Origin: a virus
Virus record (IMG/VR): IMGVR_UViG_3300034759_000309
Coordinates: 1-30,398 of that record
Strand: one strand, 5' to 3'
Length of the DNA: 30,398 nucleotides
Shown here: one piece after another, positions 6,463-27,198 of the stretch
Layout: every line of letters begins with the position of its first letter
Numbering within the stretch: position 1 is the first letter of the stretch
Translations under genes and position numbers: made by a program
The notes under the pieces: model-generated
The model's input: only the letters and a program-made list of their open reading frames with translations
Database searches by the model: none
Told to the model about the DNA's origin: nothing

Positions 6463-6731
6463 TCACATCCTCCCACCCCTAAAGGGGTGGGGTTCCCCTT
6501 CAGGGATAGCTGGTTTACGGATGCCCAACCAGACCTAAGCAGCCTGTCTGAACGTCCCCTGTTCATGGCCTTCAGGTGTGGTTTTTCTCCACACGAACAG
6601 GTTGACCGCCGGGCGTGCCAGCGCGCCCACTACTCCCGCCGATTCGATAAAATTAGACCGGCCTCGCGGAGATACCTTTGAAGAATATTGTACGTGCCCA
6701 CCATGTCAGCATTTAATGCTTGCCCGCAATG
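6463..6731 (-). mobile_element. IS200/IS605-type element remnant (tnpB tail plus right end)
   Basis: On the minus strand a 5'-truncated tnpB tail (to 6630) is followed by about 160 bases of hairpin-rich sequence. The remnant ends in CCCCTTTAGGGGTGGGAGGA then TGTGATGA, the classic subterminal palindrome of IS605-type right ends. The stretch after the stop would hold the right-end guide RNA scaffold. The element has lost its left end and most of its gene. Confidence 0.75.
6630..6731 (-). pseudogene. tnpB: C-terminal tail of a TnpB nuclease
   Basis: Thirty-three codons reading HCGQALNADMVGTYNIL and onward to a TAG at 6630. The CG...NAD..G..NIL pattern is the last part of the zinc ribbon plus the RuvC-III aspartate of TnpB. 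Everything upstream is missing. It sits directly against, and overlaps by a few codons, the 3' end of the 6713-7165 gene. Confidence 0.8.
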
Positions 6732-7165
6732 GACGAATAATCCCGGTAAAAGCAGTTAATACTTCTGCAAAACTCTACCAGTTCTTCTTTTGGTTTATAA
6801 TATACAACAGCAATTAGAGATTCTAATACAGTTTTTGCGGCATAGCTCATCATCCTTTCGGATGCCGTAATACCATACCACACGCATGCAGCGCCTTTTA
6901 CTGGGTATCTCCCGGCCAAATATTCGCATTTTTCTTTTCTATCGTTTTTATGGCAGTAAGCGCACGGTTCGGTCACATCGGGGTCCCAAAATATATCCCC
7001 CATTCTGTCGACCGTTTTTTGAGCAAACTTCCATAATATTTTTAAAAAATCTATATTTGTTTTAATACCTTTTTCTTCCAAACTTTTTTGTACAAGTAAA
7101 ACCCACTCGTCTTCATCTTTAGCCATTCCAAAGTCAGGCAGACAGATGACATTTAATTCGTTCAT
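6713..7165 (-). CDS. Hypothetical cysteine-containing protein, probably 3'-truncated
   Basis: A 150-residue open frame starting MNELNVICLPDFGMA. A short cluster CAYCHKNDRKEKCEYL near residue 67 with a further Cys near 85 may bind metal. The last codons (SSIAGKH) overlap the tnpB relic in another frame, so the native C-terminus was probably replaced when that element inserted. The region before the ATG is occupied by the structured-RNA element at 7171-7514, leaving only a weak AGGCGG site ten bases upstream. Expression may therefore be impaired. No family recognised. Confidence 0.5.
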   Translation of the reverse strand: MNELNVICLPDFGMAKDEDEWVLLVQKSLEEKGIKTNIDFLKILWKFAQKTVDRMGDIFWDPDVTEPCAYCHKNDRKEKCEYLAGRYPVKGAACVWYGITASERMMSYAAKTVLESLIAVVYYKPKEELVEFCRSINCFYRDYSSIAGKH

Positions 7166-7170
7166 AGAAA

Positions 7171-7514
7171 AAATACCGCCTGGAGACCTGTCCCCTTCAG
7201 GGGACGGGAGGAAAGGCGGCTAGGCCACCTCTCCCGCAGAGGGCTATTCACCCAACTCCGGGTCAGTGCCCGGGTGAAATTCCCCTTCGGCAATGCCCGG
7301 CAGGCTTAGCACAGTTCCCGACCGTGCGCGGCATTCAGCGGTTCTGCCGGAGTGGTCCGGACTAGGGGAGCATCCGGACGTCCTTGATAGCCCGCCGGGC
7401 GGAGAGCTAACTGAGGAAGGAGGGCCTTCCGACTTGTTGCCCTGAGCCTAGTCACGGAGTTTCCCTCAGGCCCGCCAACCTAAGCCCTACGCCTTTAGGC
7501 GTAGGGTCCGTGAC
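7171..7514 (+). ncRNA. Palindrome-bounded structured RNA element, copy 1 (OMEGA/HEARO-like candidate)
   Basis: A GC-rich block in AT-rich surroundings. It starts with hairpin GTCCCC-TTCA-GGGGAC (7190-7205) and ends with CCCTACGCC-TTTA-GGCGTAGGG (7485-7506) plus TCCGTGAC, the design of IS605-family ends. The core (about 7255-7430) aligns with 17616-17800 over its whole length. The long-range stem GCCCGGCAGGC (7295-7305) with GCCCGCCGGGC (7390-7400) is kept in copy 2 with a C-G to T-A change on both sides, which supports RNA folding. Conserved loops include AGCGGTTCTGCCGG and ACTAGGGGA. It encodes no protein. The plan recalls standalone OMEGA RNAs of IscB-type elements, but that assignment is from memory and unproven. 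Confidence 0.65.
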
Positions 7515-7552
7515 TTTTGTTGCCTCCTTTTGCATTTTTAATTAAATATAAG

Positions 7553-7584
7553 AGCGCCGGGTTAACCTGAAAAACTCCGGCGCT
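7553..7584 (-). terminator. Hairpin downstream of the gam-like gene
   Basis: A perfect eight-base stem, AGCGCCGG with CCGGCGCT, 43 bases beyond the stop of the minus-strand gam-like gene, followed on that strand by TTATATTTAATT. A likely intrinsic terminator. Confidence 0.55.
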
Positions 7585-14281: not shown

Positions 14282-14605
14282 TCCTCTCCACCTCTAATAG
14301 GCTTAAATTTTACTTTCCCCGTGCCGTTCATCTCCAGGGAGAATACCTCTTTTTCCTCATCATTTTTTGGTTCGGGCAAAATTCGTATTTAAAATATCGA
14401 CGCAAAGTATTATCATTTTTAATATAATATAATCTCTTAATGTCAACAAATTTTGTCCACATTTTGGGCATGGCTTATTTATCCATTTTTTATATTTTTC
14501 TATAACTTCATTTGCATTCCTACATTTGCATTCTACAACTTCTTCATAGTCACAATCAGGATTATCACATTTTATACCTTGTATATTTAATTGCAACGCC
14601 TTCAT
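14278..14605 (-). pseudogene. Frameshifted paralogue of the 1846-2163 zinc-ribbon gene
   Basis: From the ATG at 14605 (GAAAGGAAAA eight bases before) the frame reads MKALQLNIQGIKCDN, CDYEEVV and WINKPCPKCGQNLLTLRDYI, then stops at 14360. In the next frame the sequence continues ILPEPKN...FSLEMNGTGKVKFK, just as in the paralogue (VLPEPKE...FSVEMNGTGKMVFK). It ends in a TGA overlapping the ATG of the 14281 gene. One extra base around AATACGAATTTTG explains the break. The conserved tail and coupling suggest the full-length form was functional recently, or that the shift is an assembly error or is programmed. Confidence 0.7.
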
Positions 14606-14649
14606 GAAGATTTTCCTTTCTTTACTTTTTTCCCAACTGATTAGACTGA

Positions 14650-15099
14650 TTAGACAATATATTTCGCCAGTTCCCATATTAAAGCTACACACACAGCAGG
14701 GAATACCAAGAGTCTTTCGGCTATACCGCCCGTTCTGACAATCGGAATCCCTATCTGCGGGCCTATTGGCCAAAGAAGCTGGATTCCACTTGGATTCAGC
14801 ATATCTGCCATTATATGCGATGCATAGCCTGTTACTATAAATATCCAGTTAGCTGGCATAAATATTTTAGCTAACACATAAACAATTCCTAATGCTACAA
14901 GCGAATGAGTGGCTCTTCTGTGTCCGATTATTGGCCTTGCCAAAACCGCTCCAGCACCAACCGCATCAAAGTCAGGAATGATTGATACCACAGCGCTTAA
15001 TATTGCTCCGTTTATAACTTTTTCTGCAGGCAGCCCCATCTTTACAGTCAACATCGTTCCTGCTGCCAGTCCTATTACAGTATGTGTTTTCCAGCGCAT
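14650..15099 (-). CDS. YdjM/YbcI-family (DUF457) membrane metal-dependent hydrolase-like protein
   Basis: A 149-residue protein from the ATG at 15099 (MRWKTHTVIGLAAG), the usual start of this family. Membrane segments alternate with the conserved polar motifs KTH..G, IIPDFDA near residue 45, GHRRATHSL near 60, and GYASHIMADML with GIQLLWP near 90-105. These His/Asp sets are held to bind metal. In E. coli the family includes the LexA-regulated YdjM. A longer frame from a GTG at 15150 is open, but that GTG abuts the ribosome site. A strong hairpin lies between the ribosome site and the ATG. Confidence 0.8.
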   Translation of the reverse strand: MRWKTHTVIGLAAGTMLTVKMGLPAEKVINGAILSAVVSIIPDFDAVGAGAVLARPIIGHRRATHSLVALGIVYVLAKIFMPANWIFIVTGYASHIMADMLNPSGIQLLWPIGPQIGIPIVRTGGIAERLLVFPAVCVALIWELAKYIV

Positions 15100-17567: not shown

Positions 17568-17609
17568 TTTCTTCTCTCCCGCGTCATAGAAAAGTACCGC
17601 TTTCGCGGA

Positions 17610-17800
17610 GAATTATTTGTTCAGCTCCGGGGCAGAGCCTGGGTGAGATTCCCCCTTCGGTAATGCCCGGTAGGCGTAGCACGGTCTTGGTCGTGCACGG
17701 CGTTGAGCGGTTCTGCCGGAAGGGTCAAGACTAGGGGAACATCTGGACGTCGCTTTGTAGCCTACCGGACGGAGGGCTAACTAAGGAGGGTGGACCTTCC
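17610..17800 (+). ncRNA. Structured RNA, copy 2 (homologous to 7255-7430)
   Basis: GC-rich and collinear with copy 1. Shared blocks are CTCCGGG-type hairpin, CCCTTCGG.AATGCCCGG, AGCGGTTCTGCCGG, ACTAGGGGA.CAT, TGGACGTC and GGGCTAACT.AGGAGG, ending in ACCTTCC. Stem GCCCGGTAGGC (17665-17675) with GCCTACCGGAC (17760-17770) keeps pairing through base changes on both sides. Stem GTCTTG/CAAGAC (17684-17689, 17726-17731) replaces a differently paired stem in copy 1. The outer IS-like hairpins of copy 1 are not obvious here, so this may be a trimmed copy. Like copy 1 it begins just upstream of a minus-strand start codon. Confidence 0.6.
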
Positions 17801-17904
17801 ATTGTATAATGGATATGCAAACTTATTAGGTATAAAACAATCAGGTTTTTCTTTCTTTTCTATAAAACAGATACAATCTTTAATCTCTTTATAGTTTTTT
17901 ATTT

Positions 17905-20363: not shown

Positions 20364-23300
20364 TTAAATGTTATAGGTTACCCTTTCCTTATACTCTTCC
20401 TGTTTCCCTTTATTCCAATTCTGCATCGGGCGATAATATCCAACCACGCGGCTCCAGACTTCAGATTCCTTACCACAGTGCGGACAGGTGAAATGCTCAC
20501 CCGGAATATATCCGTGGTCGGGACAAATCGAAAACGTTGGTGTGAAAGAAAGATACGGCAGCTTATACTGCGTAAAAATACGCTGCAATAACTTCTTGAG
20601 TGCATTAGTATCTTCTATTTTTTCTCCCGTAAACATGTGAAGCACTGTGCCGCCCGTATATTTCGTCTGAAGCTCATCCTGCAAATCAAGAGCTTCAAAG
20701 ATGTCATCGGTATAATTTACAGGAAGTTGGGTAGAGTTGGTATAATAAGGCGTATCTTTCCCTGCAGTAATGATCTCGGGATACAGTTCTTTATCAATTT
20801 TCGCCAGTCTGTAGCTTGTCCCTTCTGCAGGCGTCGCTTCCAAATTAAACATTTGCCCTGTTTCTTCCTGAAATCTTATTAATAAAGACCGCAGATGATC
20901 CAAAACTTTAAGTGCAAATTCTTGACCTTCGGGTGTTCCTATATCTTTACCCATGAAGTTCAGCAGCGCTTCATTCATACCGATTATGCCGATTGTGTTG
21001 AAGTGATTGGCCCAGTACTGGCCGAAACGTTCTTTTACCATTCTCAAGTAGTATTTAGAATACGGATAAAGTCCCAGTTCGGTCATTTGTTCAACAATTC
21101 TTCGCTTAATCAACAAACTGTCTTTGGCTAACTCTGCCAGAAATGTTAAACGTTCTAAGAAATCCTGCTCGTTCTTAGACTTGTAACCAATCCTCGGCAG
21201 ATTTAAAGTAACTACTCCGACAGAACCGGTGAGCGGATTGGCACCAAAAAGCCCGCCTCCCTTGCGCTGTAGTTCACGCACGTCCAGCCTCAGCCTGCAA
21301 CACATAGAACGCACTTGCTCGGGGCTTAAGTCCGAATTGATGAAGTTCGCAAAATAAGGCGTACCATATTTTGCCGTCATTTCCATGATATCCCCACACA
21401 CAGAACTGTCAAAGAATTCTTCAGTAATGTTGTATGTTGGGATCGGAAACGTAAAGATTCTACCTTTAGCATCCCCTTGACTCATAACCTCACAAAATGC
21501 CTTATTAATCATATTCATTTCTTCTTGGTAGTCTCCATAAGTGGGATCGTAGAACATTCTTTTGCCACCAAAGATTACAGGCTCTTTTTTCATATGTGCC
21601 GGTACTTGTACATCAAAGGTAAGATTGACAAAAGGAGTGTTGCCTGTAATAAAGACTTTGCCCTTACGGCGAGCAACGACAGTTTCGTTTTTGGTATGCG
21701 GACACCATATTACGCCGTCATAATCTATTTCTTCGATGCTTGTGATGTGGGTATCCGCATGGTCAATCAATCTCAAGACGTACACAGACTTTTTATTCAG
21801 CAACTTGGGGTTAAGATCCATTCTTCTCGTCATACAGGTGACTCCATAGCCAGCATTGACTGCAACCTGCATAAGGTCGTCCCGTAACCGTGCTGAAGCC
21901 GTAGCAATTTTGGACTTAAAGTCCCCGTCCGCGCGGAGATAAGTCCTGAGAAATTCGCGGCAGACTTCCCTCCCGCCCTGTTTGATCTTTTCTGGCACAA
22001 ACTTGATGTCACAGGCAGATTGGGGGACAGAATCAACAAAACCGAAGAACTCAAGGATCTTCCTTGTTCCTTCGGCGTTGATCCGGTACACCCAGCATTT
22101 ATTTCCAAGACCATATTGTTCATGTACCGAGTATTTGAATGGCTTCAGCAGATCCTCAATTTCTCTAGTACAGTCAGGATGTTTTGTGGGCGACTGTACG
22201 ATGCTTATCCTACCGCTTCCCCTTCCGCTCCAGTCATAGCTTCCGTCAGCCAGTATCCATGCTGCCAGCTTGACTATCCGCATGTCAACCGGTTCCTGTG
22301 GTTTGATATTCACAGTTCCTTTACCCGCCACGGGAACAAGAGGCCCTGTTTTCAGGTCGAGTATTTTTTCAACAGGTTCCATAACATACTGGTCGCTGTT
22401 GAAAACTCTCCTCACAACTCTATGGCGCGGCGAGACTAGTTGGTCTGTTATACGGCTTTTGAGTCGATACATCTTGCCTTTGTAAGGACGCGCAAATACG
22501 GTTTCAACCGGCAAATACTCAATGGTCTGGCTATCAAGGTTGAACGTCGCTATGGTCATGCCGGGCTTGACTTCGTTATACTTCTTCCACCCTTCAATGG
22601 TCAGGATCTCTGTATCTTCGCTGACGCATTGAAACCCGACGCGCGTCGGCACGTTAATGTTGAAAATGAACTCCTGCATGGCCTGCTTAACATCTTTGTA
22701 GGAGAGGCCGTCATGGCGCACGAAAGGGGCCAGGTAGGTATCGAAGTTCGCCAGTGCCTGTGCTCCTGCCGCTTCACCCTGCAAAGTATAAAAGAAGTTC
22801 ACAATTTGTCCCAAAGCTGATCGAAAATGCTTAGGTGGAGCACTTTCTATTTTTTGCGGTGCACCTTTAAAACCCTCAGTCAAAAGATCGGCAAGGTCCC
22901 AGCCACAGCAATATGGAGATAAGAGGCCCAGATCGTGAATATGAAAATCGCCGTATTCATGTGCTTCCTTAATTTTGGGTGGATATATCTTTTCCAGCCA
23001 GTACTTCTTGGACATAGCTGATACCATGTGGTTATTCAGCCCCTGCAAGGAAAAATTCATATTGCTGTTTTCTTTAACTTCCCAGGTTTTTTCGGTAATA
23101 TAATCTTGTATTAAACGGCCACTGTTTATAAGGAGATTCTGGAAATTTCGAATCTCTGCGTGCTGTTGTCTGTAAAGAATATAGGCTTTAGCAGTCTTGG
23201 CGTGGCCGTTTTCGATAAGGACCTTTTCGACGATATCTTGCACGTCTTCTACGGAAGGTATTGCAACGCCGTATTTTTCTTCCAGTATTTTAACAACCTG

Positions 23301-23432
23301 ACCGGCCAAATACTTGGCTCGGTCAAAGTCCTGGCCGCCAACTGCTCTAGCGGCCTTAAAAATGGCGTTGGTAATCTTCTCTTCGTCAAATGGAACAATT
23401 CTACCGTCACGCTTTTTAATTTTTGTCAGCAT
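20364..23432 (-). CDS. nrdD: Anaerobic (class III) ribonucleoside-triphosphate reductase with intein
   Basis: A 1022-codon frame giving a 692-residue NrdD after removal of a 330-residue intein. It reduces NTPs to dNTPs with a glycyl radical made by NrdG. An ATP-cone (KIKKRDGRIVPFDEEKITNA, about 1-95) is followed by the catalytic barrel with NVPTRVGFQ|TPFVNLTFD split by the intein. SMCCRLRLD comes next, then the C-terminal zinc site CPDHGY...CPHCG and the glycyl-radical loop RVVGYYRP (Gly998 of the precursor). The start is the ATG at 23432 after AGGAGGAGG; longer frames upstream lie in tdk. It overlaps the end of tdk by 17 bases, so the two are translationally linked. The ATP-cone implies dATP feedback control. 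Confidence 0.95.
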   Translation of the reverse strand: MLTKIKKRDGRIVPFDEEKITNAIFKAARAVGGQDFDRAKYLAGQVVKILEEKYGVAIPSVEDVQDIVEKVLIENGHAKTAKAYILYRQQHAEIRNFQNLLINSGRLIQDYITEKTWEVKENSNMNFSLQGLNNHMVSAMSKKYWLEKIYPPKIKEAHEYGDFHIHDLGLLSPYCCGWDLADLLTEGFKGAPQKIESAPPKHFRSALGQIVNFFYTLQGEAAGAQALANFDTYLAPFVRHDGLSYKDVKQAMQEFIFNINVPTRVGFQCVSEDTEILTIEGWKKYNEVKPGMTIATFNLDSQTIEYLPVETVFARPYKGKMYRLKSRITDQLVSPRHRVVRRVFNSDQYVMEPVEKILDLKTGPLVPVAGKGTVNIKPQEPVDMRIVKLAAWILADGSYDWSGRGSGRISIVQSPTKHPDCTREIEDLLKPFKYSVHEQYGLGNKCWVYRINAEGTRKILEFFGFVDSVPQSACDIKFVPEKIKQGGREVCREFLRTYLRADGDFKSKIATASARLRDDLMQVAVNAGYGVTCMTRRMDLNPKLLNKKSVYVLRLIDHADTHITSIEEIDYDGVIWCPHTKNETVVARRKGKVFITGNTPFVNLTFDVQVPAHMKKEPVIFGGKRMFYDPTYGDYQEEMNMINKAFCEVMSQGDAKGRIFTFPIPTYNITEEFFDSSVCGDIMEMTAKYGTPYFANFINSDLSPEQVRSMCCRLRLDVRELQRKGGGLFGANPLTGSVGVVTLNLPRIGYKSKNEQDFLERLTFLAELAKDSLLIKRRIVEQMTELGLYPYSKYYLRMVKERFGQYWANHFNTIGIIGMNEALLNFMGKDIGTPEGQEFALKVLDHLRSLLIRFQEETGQMFNLEATPAEGTSYRLAKIDKELYPEIITAGKDTPYYTNSTQLPVNYTDDIFEALDLQDELQTKYTGGTVLHMFTGEKIEDTNALKKLLQRIFTQYKLPYLSFTPTFSICPDHGYIPGEHFTCPHCGKESEVWSRVVGYYRPMQNWNKGKQEEYKERVTYNI
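21639..22628 (-). other. Intein with LAGLIDADG homing endonuclease inside nrdD
   Basis: Residues 269-598 of the nrdD precursor. It begins CVSEDTEILTIEGWKKYNEV (block A, Cys1). Block B-like LVSPRHRVVRR lies near 332-342, and two LAGLIDADG motifs, LAAWILADGSY near 389 and FLRTYLRADGDF near 494, mark a homing endonuclease. The end is VARRKGKVFITGN, followed by Thr+1. The usual penultimate His is Gly here, while the final Asn is kept, so splicing may depend on another residue. The insertion point, inside the strictly conserved NVPTRVGFQTPF active-site loop, is typical of inteins. Confidence 0.93.
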
Positions 23433-24006
23433 GTTTTTCCTCCTCCTGTTTTTTATACCAGCAACGCCGGCACAGGGCAATGTAATTATTGCCCAACACA
23501 ACATCCTCTGTTTTGTTAAACTTGGGCCAGCAGCGGACTGCTGGATTGCCGCACTCAGTACAAACACCGTATACCTGAGTAATCACATCGGCTCTGGCTA
23601 AGAGTTCGGGCATCGGCCCAAAAGACCGCCCATCAGCCAGGAGTGTTAGACCAGCACCAATAACAATATGCTCACTTTTTACAAGTTCTTCTATTACAGT
23701 AATGATGCTGGCCGGGAATAACTGAATTTCGTCGATGCCAACAACTTCAATATGAGGATCTAACTTTGTCAGTATTTCCTCAGGGTCTTTAATTTCGATT
23801 CCGGGCATTTGGATACCGTTGTGTGCAACAACTTTCCCGGTTGCTTTGTAGCGGTCCTGTGACCCCTTAGGATAAAATAATTGGACCTTACGTCCGGCCC
23901 GAATAAAAGTTTCCAACCGAGTTAGCAATGTGCTTGTTTTGCCGGCAAACATAGAACCTGAAGTAATTAACTCGAATAAACTGTTGTCCTTACGATAATA
24001 CAACAT
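23416..24006 (-). CDS. tdk: Thymidine kinase (type II)
   Basis: A 196-residue kinase that phosphorylates thymidine to dTMP in nucleotide salvage. The P-loop GSMFAGKTSTL lies near residue 17, the DEIQLF motif (Walker B-like) near 92, the lasso region with FGPMPELLARAD, and a zinc site CTECGNPAVRC plus CRRC near the end. The start is the ATG at 24006 behind AGGGGGTGATAAAA; a GTG three codons upstream overlaps that site. It overlaps nrdD, making a dNTP-supply operon. Such pairing is common in phages and large plasmids. Confidence 0.93.
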   Translation of the reverse strand: MLYYRKDNSLFELITSGSMFAGKTSTLLTRLETFIRAGRKVQLFYPKGSQDRYKATGKVVAHNGIQMPGIEIKDPEEILTKLDPHIEVVGIDEIQLFPASIITVIEELVKSEHIVIGAGLTLLADGRSFGPMPELLARADVITQVYGVCTECGNPAVRCWPKFNKTEDVVLGNNYIALCRRCWYKKQEEEKHADKN

Positions 24007-24062: not shown

Positions 24063-24260
24063 AAAACTATATTTTTTACCTGAATCATTTATTTTTCTTC
24101 TAACTTTGTTATTCCGCCGCCATTGCTAATATAGAGATATTTAATACCTGTTATATTATCTTCCAAAATATAGATATCCCTGAAACTTTTAGGAAAATGT
24201 TGTTTATAAACAATTTTGAATCTATAATCCTGCATACCGCCTACTTTAGAGCATGCTGTT

Positions 24261-25841
24261 GTGACTTCCTCCCACGTCTAAAGACATGGGCTTCCCGTTG
24301 GGGCAAATGAAACCCTTGGCGCGGTTACAGTGGTAAACGCTCCTTTTGACCCGTTGCCGGATGAGCTCCCACAGGCGACCGTCACACCGTCGCAACTACT
24401 CCAGGTGCTTTGGTTCAGGCCGCAGCCCTTGGAGATACTTTTGTATATTTGTTTAATCTTTTATCCCACCGGTATACTTCCGGTGCTTTAAGAGTAAACT
24501 GCTGCTTTGAATCACAGCGGCCGTAAAGGTAGTTCTTTAAAATGCCATTTGCACCGTTTAAATCGGCATGGATTATCGCACCGCATTTTCTGCAGCGCCA
24601 AAGGCCCCTGTGGACCCGGTAGGATTTGTTCCTTGCTCCGCAGCAGCTGCATGTCCGAGAGCTGTATCTCTCACTTCCTTTATCAGGCCGTATTTGCTTG
24701 AGCAGGGACTTGTATGCATGCTGCTGCTCAATTTGAGCATACGGCAGTTGGTTGATCTTCTGGTTGGATTTTTTGCCTTTGTCACCTGTCCTGGACGCCC
24801 GCCGGAGATCGGTTAAATCACCCAACACAGAAACAGCTGTGTTTTCCGTCCAGTCCAGTTCGGCCATCAGCTTGGTTAAAGCGTTGGTCAATTGCTTTAT
24901 CCAGCGGTCCAGCTTTTTGAGAACCTTGCGCTTGGCGTTTAAAAGCGTCTTCCATCTCCGGGAACCTTCTTTCAGTCTTGACATCTTCTGCTGAAACTCA
25001 GCCGTTATTTTGTTCCGATACTGGATTAAAGAAAGCAGTTCCCGGCAGACGATTAACTGCTGGCTGCCTTCCGTGGATACTCTGGCAATCAGAGCCGTAT
25101 TCAGGTCATACGCCGATACTCCATTACCTGTAATTAAAGGCACTGCACCAAAATCCCAGGTAATGTGCATCTCTAATCCTGTGACTTTTCTTCTGCGGTA
25201 AACAGCTTTAATCTTTGCCTCAACAGGCGTGCCGACCAGAATAGTACCATCCGGTAATTTAAGTGAATCAGCACCTTCCGGCAGAGGCACCTCGACATCA
25301 TCTAGCTTACGGGCTAATTTCAAAGTTATCGTGTCCTTACGGTATTCGAATCCCTGTCGTTTCCAGGTAATGGTGCGCAGCATGTTTTTGTTTTTAAAGC
25401 CCGGCGGCTGCATTTCATCGTGGCCGTTTTTATGATGCCCGGCATACGACCGCACCGCTTCAAAATATTCTTCCACTACAGCTTGAGCACTCTGCGAATG
25501 AAGCTGCTTCCAGGATTCGTAATGTTTAAACTTCTCCTTCAGTTCACTTTCAGTCGGATACTTTTCATTTTTCTTGCGGGCTTCCCGGCTGTGCCATACA
25601 CAGGAGTTCCAGATTTTTGTGGCGGCCAGCATGGATCTTTTAAATACGGGCAGCCAGATATCCAGTGAAAGCGGTATTGCTCTGGTTAAATACAGCCGGT
25701 TTTCTTGTTTTTTGCCTTTTTTCTTCGCCCAGCCCATTTTTTCACCTTCCGTTCATCCCGATATTTTTTTGCTGGGGAAACTTACTCCCCAGCAAAAAAG
25801 CTGCTTTCATCCCACCCTTTAAAAGAGATGGGTTTTCTCGC
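24261..25841 (-). mobile_element. IS200/IS605-type element carrying tnpB only (IS1341-like)
   Basis: The left end has hairpin CCCATCTCTTTTAAAGGGTGGG (25811-25832) and a long palindrome TTTTTTGCTGGGG/CCCCAGCAAAAAA (25765-25799). The right end has CCCATGTCTTTAGACGTGGG (24271-24290) followed by AGGAAGTCAC. Between tnpB and the right end are about 150 bases of GC-rich sequence, the expected place of the guide (omega) RNA scaffold. No tnpA is present, so transposition would need a helper. Boundaries were set from the palindromes and by restoring the interrupted gene. Confidence 0.8.
24415..25737 (-). CDS. tnpB: TnpB RNA-guided nuclease-like protein
   Basis: A 440-residue protein; GGAAGGTG precedes the ATG. 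TnpB proteins are RuvC-type nucleases guided by the transposon right-end RNA. Visible parts are an N-terminal nucleic-acid-binding half and a RuvC-I-like segment with SAYDLNTALIARVS near residue 208. A long coiled region and SVLGDLTDLRRAS near 304 follow, where the usual catalytic Glu of ..EDL.. appears as Gly. The zinc ribbon is CSCCGARNK...CRKCG, and RuvC-III is HADLNGANGIL with its Asp. The changed second site could mean a nuclease-dead protein, or a rearranged Glu such as the one in YAQIEQQHAYKSL. Confidence 0.85.
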   Translation of the reverse strand: MGWAKKKGKKQENRLYLTRAIPLSLDIWLPVFKRSMLAATKIWNSCVWHSREARKKNEKYPTESELKEKFKHYESWKQLHSQSAQAVVEEYFEAVRSYAGHHKNGHDEMQPPGFKNKNMLRTITWKRQGFEYRKDTITLKLARKLDDVEVPLPEGADSLKLPDGTILVGTPVEAKIKAVYRRRKVTGLEMHITWDFGAVPLITGNGVSAYDLNTALIARVSTEGSQQLIVCRELLSLIQYRNKITAEFQQKMSRLKEGSRRWKTLLNAKRKVLKKLDRWIKQLTNALTKLMAELDWTENTAVSVLGDLTDLRRASRTGDKGKKSNQKINQLPYAQIEQQHAYKSLLKQIRPDKGSERYSSRTCSCCGARNKSYRVHRGLWRCRKCGAIIHADLNGANGILKNYLYGRCDSKQQFTLKAPEVYRWDKRLNKYTKVSPRAAA

Positions 25842-26608: not shown

Positions 26609-26851
26609 TCAAGCAATTGAAGCGGCTTCTTCTTTAAACTTATATATCGGCAAAAGTTTTTCACCAACTGCTTTTTGATTTTTAACCAACTTTTCTATTT
26701 CGTCTAAAATGCTGTCGTCATAGTATTCCTCGGCGCAATTTTCACACATGTATACTGGCACATCTTTTATTATTATATGGTTCCCGTTTAGGTTCTGCTC
26801 GATATCTTTTTTCATTCTTTTTAAGTCATGTCCGCAAAATACACACTTCAT
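26609..26851 (-). CDS. YgiT-type zinc-finger antitoxin-like protein
   Basis: Eighty residues with MKCVFCGH at the start and CENCAEEYYDD near residue 36: the two CxxC pairs of the YgiT/MqsA N-terminal zinc domain, followed by a short helical tail without the DNA-binding domain of full MqsA. AAAGGAGCGATAAAA precedes the ATG. It directly follows a DUF4258 gene; this pair is a recurrent toxin-antitoxin-like arrangement, with this one as the antitoxin. Confidence 0.75.
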   Translation of the reverse strand: MKCVFCGHDLKRMKKDIEQNLNGNHIIIKDVPVYMCENCAEEYYDDSILDEIEKLVKNQKAVGEKLLPIYKFKEEAASIA

Positions 26852-26886
26852 TTTTATCGCTCCTTTTTATATTTACGGCTTTATAT

Positions 26887-27198
26887 TCACAGCCAACCAT
26901 TTTTTCTGGTTTTATAATCACTTTCAAATCTATTATCTGGTATATATACCGTTTTTATGACAATTTTTTCTTCATAATTTACAAAAACCACATGATAGGG
27001 TTTATAAAATAAAAAGAATATTATATAAAATTCTCCATAACCGTATCGCCATATATATTCTATAATTTCTCCTTTTATAATCCCGTTTTTTACATTATCT
27101 CTTGTTATATTATATTTACTTATTTTTTCCAGAGCATGTTTTGTCCAAATTAATTTATTGTTATTTACCTTTTCTATTATTTCAAGTGGCTTTTCCAT
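26887..27198 (-). CDS. DUF4258 toxin-like protein
   Basis: A 103-residue protein with WTKHALEKISKYNITRDNV, then IIKGEIIEYIW and late VVFVNYEEKIVIKTVYIPD. The W..HA..KI......R..V...I..GEIIE order is that of DUF4258, a RelE/HigB-like fold thought to act as an mRNA-cleaving toxin. It stands first in a two-gene unit, 35 bases before the YgiT-type antitoxin gene, with a good AAAGGAG site. Activity is not shown by sequence alone. Confidence 0.75.
   Translation of the reverse strand: MEKPLEIIEKVNNNKLIWTKHALEKISKYNITRDNVKNGIIKGEIIEYIWRYGYGEFYIIFFLFYKPYHVVFVNYEEKIVIKTVYIPDNRFESDYKTRKNGWL

Follow-up and report, generated by a model that had tools for sequence, protein, structure and literature searches.

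A probable ORF-less IsrB-type OMEGA element directly upstream of a start codon on a virus contig

Known OMEGA systems and the two copies in the window

IsrB is an RNA-guided DNA nickase without HNH, and the IsrB lineage led to Cas9; to our knowledge, a biological role for IsrB has not been established. A solved example is DtIsrB of Desulfovirgula thermocuniculi (PDB 8dmb; PMC9581776). Its omegaRNA carries a 20-nt guide directly 5′ of the scaffold, the TAM is NTGA, and disruption of the adaptor pseudoknot abolishes nicking (PMC9581776). IscB omegaRNAs belong to the same RNA superfamily (HEARO, Rfam RF02033), and the same paper, citing earlier work, states that IscB can use standalone omegaRNAs in trans. 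Miniature elements associated with IS200/IS605 palindromes are short, lack ORFs and have palindromes at their ends (PMC7290912). For IsrB, a literature search (with the 2021 OMEGA and 2009 HEARO papers outside its scope) returned no title or abstract on standalone guide RNAs. Standalone omegaRNAs are already known for IscB, then; the locus described here is of an ORF-less IsrB type, in a phage, and is accompanied by a truncated second copy.

The locus lies in IMG/VR record IMGVR_UViG_3300034759_000309, the whole of which (30,398 bases) is the window analysed here; its assignment to a virus is the database's own. Genes in the record include a Mu-Gam-like protein, a RadC-like repair protein, a MoxR-like ATPase, an anaerobic ribonucleotide reductase and a thymidine kinase. 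Among 20 window proteins scanned against PHROGs there was no clear structural gene, and the sole match to a tail family was weak and fell on the RadC-like protein.

An initial annotation had described two diverged, collinear, GC-rich copies without protein genes, with cores at 7255-7430 and 17616-17800, the first within a feature at 7171-7514. That description holds: the copies align collinearly at 81% identity over 179 nt (E 5.7e-41), with a BLAST score of 157 bits, where none of 987 scored dinucleotide shuffles exceeds 28.3 bits, their GC contents are 63% (copy 1) and 58% (copy 2) in a contig of 39%, and the ORF list places no protein gene inside either. The description needs correcting in that the copies run on the minus strand, extend over ~7166-7514 and ~17588-17804, and differ in that copy 2 is without the 5′ domain. 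The features are as follows, the basis of each being given in brackets; L102 is a relative on another virus contig that is described below.

~7166-7514, minus: copy 1, a complete ORF-less miniature element very probably of the IsrB type, with left end, omegaRNA scaffold and right end (Rfam HEARO, L102 identity, nhmmer)
7545-7573, minus: promoter-like TTTTCA-17-TATATT upstream of the guide (consensus match only)
7515-7534, minus: predicted guide position in the 5′ flank, TGCAAAAGGAGGCAACAAAA (place of the 20-nt guide in DtIsrB)
7523-7528, minus: Shine-Dalgarno AGGAGG within TGCAAAAGGAGGCAACAAAA (sequence)
7451-7514, minus: 5′ stem S1, GTCACGGA / TCCGTGAC, pairing 7507-7514 with 7451-7458 around SL1 and the SL2 adaptor loop (GCGG) (fold, alignment)
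7485-7506, minus: SL1-equivalent hairpin CCCTACGCC-TAAA-GGCGTAGGG, the left-end palindrome inside the RNA (fold)
7295-7400, minus: long-range stem S3, pairing 7389-7400 with 7295-7306 and enclosing SL4, SL5 and SL6 (fold, alignment)
7330-7348, minus: SL5, carrying the AACCGC adaptor partner (fold, alignment)
7176-7219, minus: right-end palindrome, followed by TATTTTTTCT and then the insertion point (homologous to the L102 right end after isrB)
7162-7165, minus: ATGA flanking the right end, predicted TAM (NTGA) and start codon of ORF 6713-7165 (NTGA of DtIsrB)
~17588-17804, minus: copy 2, a 5′-truncated IsrB-type scaffold (IsrB profile positions 75-241, E 5.4e-35)
17597-17608, minus: minimal right-end hairpin of copy 2 (fold)
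17584-17587, minus: ATGA flanking the right end of copy 2 (sequence)

Both copies terminate in GCGGTA, a T-rich run and CT, and are followed by ATGA. The two IS605-style palindromes claimed for copy 1 are present. The one at 7485-7506 is a perfect 10-bp palindrome (DNA fold z -4.5) that lies within the 5′ domain of the RNA, and the one at 7176-7219 forms the right end. Copy 2 lacks S1, SL1 and SL2, so that its 5′ third is missing.

RNA class and structure

The initial annotation had called the element OMEGA/HEARO-like and had proposed searching both copies with the Rfam model. Copy 1 matches RF02033 over the full model (1-211; window 7514-7274) at 82.9 bits with E 1.6e-15, narrowly short of the 83-bit gathering score, whereas copy 2 alone gives chance matches only and no HEARO match. 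As to the kind of RNA the call was correct; the sub-type, however, is IsrB and not IscB, since the nearest relatives precede isrB. Copy 1 is 76% identical to the published DtIsrB omegaRNA over 108 nt (E 2.6e-17), an alignment that covers CTCCGGCAGAACCGCTnAATGCCGC, one side of the adaptor pseudoknot in the adaptor stem-loop. A search with RF02033 of genomes of one order (that of L014, Peptococcaceae) recovered a number of loci similar to copy 1 and to the DtIsrB RNA alike. Six of the loci (L088-L092 and L094) encode proteins that bear the PLMP and arginine-rich RuvC signatures but lack HNH, and most of the nearest RNAs have an isrB-like ORF directly downstream. An IsrB-type RNA profile scores IsrB types at 118-196 bits and other HEARO loci at about 32 bits or less, with one intermediate HEARO locus (L115) at 55 bits; copy 1 matches it with an nhmmer E of 1.3e-53, the profile including copy 1 itself.

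These comparisons bear on two other identities. An IscB-type (HNH-containing) HEARO guide RNA served by a host IscB would account for the Rfam match, and related Clostridia do have IscB-linked and apparently standalone HEAROs. Against this, both BLAST and the profile place copy 1 with IsrB RNAs, it has the IsrB-type SL2/SL5 adaptor, and the closest element (L102) encodes IsrB; on the profile and L102 comparisons the IscB sub-type was rejected, and we regard it as very unlikely. A fragment of another known element, such as the group II intron that the initial annotation had named as a refuting match, has a negligible chance of being correct: nothing was found in its favour, a whole-window Rfam scan gives only HEARO here and no intron, and the L102 alignment contradicts it. 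As a statement of identity only, copy 1 is in all likelihood an ORF-less IsrB-type element. It resembles DtIsrB and other IsrB OMEGA systems in how the scaffold is built, in having adaptor and nexus pseudoknots, in the place of the guide at the 5′ side and in the NTGA right flank. It differs from them in that they have isrB, that the core is only 76% identical, and that copy 1 and L102 form another sub-lineage.

The minimum-energy RNA fold of copy 1 shows S1, SL1, SL2, S3, SL4, SL5 and SL6 (z -3.6). The covariation that the initial annotation looked to a deeper alignment for is found among 18 IsrB-type RNAs, whose kinship inflates counts of two-sided change. RNAalifold predicts 53 pairs from these rows, 37 with two-sided compensatory changes. 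When the published DtIsrB structure is imposed instead, 93.0% of cells pair, compared with 77.6% after shuffling and at most 49% when the structure is slid, and two-sided changes are seen at 46 of the 85 pairs (29.6 in shuffled alignments, with 0 of 500 shuffles reaching 46); the L094 row is essentially the DtIsrB RNA, so the imposed structure and the alignment are not fully independent of each other. Copy 1 forms 62 of the 76 non-gap pairs of that structure (a count in which adaptor columns are partly misplaced) and retains the family-invariant bases, with S1, S3 and both pseudoknots pairing.

Individual elements behave differently. The initial annotation had claimed an 11-base long-range stem maintained by changes on both arms. 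The stem is real (S3), and 8 of its 12 pairs show two-sided changes in the 18-sequence alignment. Between the two copies themselves, one pair goes from C-G to U-A on both arms, two changes are one-sided and the terminal pair is broken in copy 2, so that the original claim rested on thin data. The nexus pseudoknot, between the SL4 loop and the region after S2, pairs in 98.9% of cells and has two-sided changes in 3 of its 5 pairs. The adaptor pseudoknot, in which GCGG of the SL2 loop pairs with CCGC of the SL5 loop (group B), is present in all 17 sequences having both sides, copy 1 included, and absent from copy 2; its pairs hardly vary, which is conservation rather than covariation.

Relatives, insertion site and guide

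A motif scan of viral contigs gave four true relatives (L101-L104). An isrB-like ORF lies directly downstream in three of them (L102-L104) and only the start of one in L101. Four other matches (L100, L105, L106 and L136) consisted of the short motif without the scaffold and were discarded as chance. L102, on IMGVR_UViG_3300022514_000030 (172,670 bases), has an omegaRNA that shares 86% identity with copy 1 over 278 nt, followed by isrB and a right end, the last being 77% identical to that of copy 1 over 69 nt and beginning ~9 nt before the isrB stop. The best solved match of its 342-aa IsrB is DtIsrB (8dmb, E 6e-51, residues 2-296); IscB structures give N-terminal matches only, far weaker than 8dmb, and the NCBIfam IscB model matches below cut-off over the N-terminal half only. 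Because copy 1 keeps the left end, scaffold and right end of L102 without isrB, it corresponds to an L102-like element minus isrB. It is also nearer to the L102 RNA (85% identity) than to copy 2 (74% over 197 columns), so the window copies are not a recent duplication. In L102 an 8-nt exact repeat, AAAGGAGG, occurs at the isrB ribosome-binding site and at the isrB 3′ end (a repeat of such length occurs in 1.8% of shuffles). We offer only as a suggestion that recombination between AAAGGAGG repeats might have removed isrB; the copy 1 junction does not agree exactly with the product this predicts.

Loss of the ORF recurs and is not peculiar to this phage: three further elements (L107b, L108 and L110, from two genomes of the same order as L014) keep the RNA and right end and have lost isrB or retain only its ends. 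In L107a (L107 1530-2850) isrB is full-length with one in-frame stop, a TGA, and two ORF-deleted elements, one in L107 and one in L108, lie on the same contig. This interrupted copy is the only near-full-length isrB of its type found in that genome (G470), where the IsrB family may be dying or may be served by another effector. As a separate observation, the virus record that holds L103 (G518) has an IsrB-type system and, apparently, one of the IscB type as well. Nucleotide searches with copy 1 of phage and plasmid collections gave no match, nor did exact-pattern scans for the shared core in viral and genome contigs or a scan for the right-end pattern.

Joining the flanks of copy 1 gives AAAAGGAGGCAACAAAA|ATGAACG, a canonical ribosome-binding site and start of ORF 6713-7165, with 8 nt between the Shine-Dalgarno and the start. 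Copy 1 thus sits exactly between Shine-Dalgarno and start codon, and its natural guide would be that ribosome-binding site. The ATGA at the right ends of copies 1 and 2 fits the NTGA of DtIsrB. About ten relatives have similar right-end flanks (TTGA in L090, L091, L094, L107b, L108, L109, L110 and L116, ATGA in L088 and GTGA in L103), some of these boundaries having been placed with NTGA in mind. The flank in L102 is ATGG (TTGA if the boundary is placed otherwise), which makes the TAM of the copy 1/L102 sub-lineage uncertain. AGGAG or GGAGG at ribosome-binding-site spacing occurs in the 5′ flank of 6 of 19 IsrB-type elements (L102, L104, L116, L088, L101 and copy 1) versus 3.8% of nearby control windows (binomial 5e-5), a post hoc count in that the motif was seen first in copy 1 and L102, with 2 of the 19 coming from related loci of one genome. 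For other HEARO loci the figures are 5 of 50 versus 3.1%. Where the right flanks of the IsrB-type elements inserted at ribosome-binding sites are readable, they are ATGA, ATGG or TTGA and constitute the start codon.

Two promoter-like sites were found in the region against 0.2 expected, and one finishes ~30 nt upstream of copy 1. If this predicted promoter is used, with a start ~7 nt on, the transcript would open with roughly the expected 20-nt guide. No second site for the copy 1 guide with fewer than six mismatches beside NTGA occurs in the window, and a protein-based search with the flanking genes found no empty-site relatives.

Possible function and competing readings

Read from its sequence, copy 1 is very probably a non-autonomous element derived from an IsrB OMEGA transposon by deletion of the ORF, and it is placed directly 5′ of ATGA. 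Neither isrB nor iscB is seen in the 30-kb record, which makes copy 1 an ORF-less derivative rather than an autonomous IsrB system and leaves the linked iscB that the initial annotation had suggested looking for without a counterpart. Its proposal of a non-autonomous IS605-superfamily element agrees with the hairpin ends and the missing nuclease; mobility is the conditional part, as a Y1 transposase (PF01797) is absent from this record and from the L102 record. Both activities would therefore have to come in trans, and the IsrB partner is hypothetical.

A mechanism can be proposed from the biochemistry of DtIsrB and from the report that standalone IscB RNAs function in trans. The omegaRNA would be transcribed from the promoter of the gene that copy 1 interrupts, and about 20 nt of flank at its 5′ end, which hold the ribosome-binding site, would be the guide. 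An IsrB provided in trans, from another element of the host or from a co-infecting phage, would bind the copy 1 RNA and nick the empty site (ribosome-binding site plus ATGA). The nick might favour recopying into empty alleles or retention of the element after excision, and a Y1 transposase, also in trans, would move it. Copy 2 would be an older relative from which the domain next to the guide and the partner of the adaptor pseudoknot are gone. Its guide would lack a defined start, and as breakage of the pseudoknots abolishes nicking by DtIsrB, copy 2 is probably inactive. Guide activity of copy 1 in trans is plausible, and we put its chances at about even. A more specific version is doubtful: a parasitic, guide-only homing element carried by phages, with the ribosome-binding site as guide and the gene promoter as RNA promoter, through which the phage would turn an IsrB of cellular or co-infecting origin against rival or sister genomes, nicking those that lack the insertion.

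A serious competitor, to which we give somewhat less than an even chance, makes the same identity claim and differs on function, taking both copies as dead remnants of IsrB elements without RNA activity. The record has no effector, copy 2 has lost the domains whose adaptor is needed for nicking by DtIsrB (PMC9581776), and the copies have diverged to 74% identity over 197 columns. Copy 1, however, keeps the family-invariant bases, is 85% identical to the RNA of L102 and still forms S1, S3 and the two pseudoknots. It is improbable that the locus acts only as DNA, as an IS200/IS605 MITE with transposition hairpins, or in cis as a 5′ leader of the downstream gene. Such readings would explain the hairpin ends and the place directly upstream of a start codon, but conservation as well as covariation spans the whole scaffold, the nexus pseudoknot included, which neither a MITE nor an unrelated leader needs, and the gene downstream of copy 2 is unrelated to that downstream of copy 1. 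Copy 1 shares with the palindrome-associated miniature elements its short, ORF-less form and end palindromes; it differs from them (PMC7290912) in that its interior is a full structured guide RNA. With the standalone IscB omegaRNAs, as cited in PMC9581776, it shares a guide RNA without adjacent effector that could act in trans. In contrast to these, copy 1 is of the IsrB type and lies on a virus contig, and comparison with a phage relative shows its origin by ORF deletion.

Copy 1 would thereby be a natural, well-delimited test case for IsrB acting in trans. A guide-only element with a known insertion site and an isrB-bearing viral relative allows a direct test of IsrB in trans, and the same elements allow asking whether nicking at the empty site aids spread. 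The predicted promoter, the ribosome-binding site as guide and the start codon as TAM give a concrete assay target.

Several other features of the window are recorded here. A tnpB gene at 24415-25737 (minus), with a Cas12f1-like TNB domain, has its own 3′ omegaRNA-like region at ~24249-24470. Part of 6471-6677 (minus) aligns with that RNA region; this segment matches sot0042 below threshold (32 bits, E 5.9e-5), has the TnpB-type 3′ end CCACCCCTTTAGGGGTGGGAGGA, and is likely a standalone TnpB omegaRNA without adjoining tnpB, 500 bases from copy 1. The NRDD match of the anaerobic ribonucleotide reductase (20364-23567, minus) is split by an intein-like block that begins CVSEDTEI and finishes VFITGN. 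Adjacent small ORFs at 26609-27198 (minus), a YgiT/MqsA-like zinc protein and a small basic protein, resemble a toxin-antitoxin pair by eye only. Two similar short zinc-ribbon-like proteins (1846-2163 and 14360-14773, minus) share GIKCD..C.... and KPCP.CG.NLLT.RDYI and are apparent paralogues.
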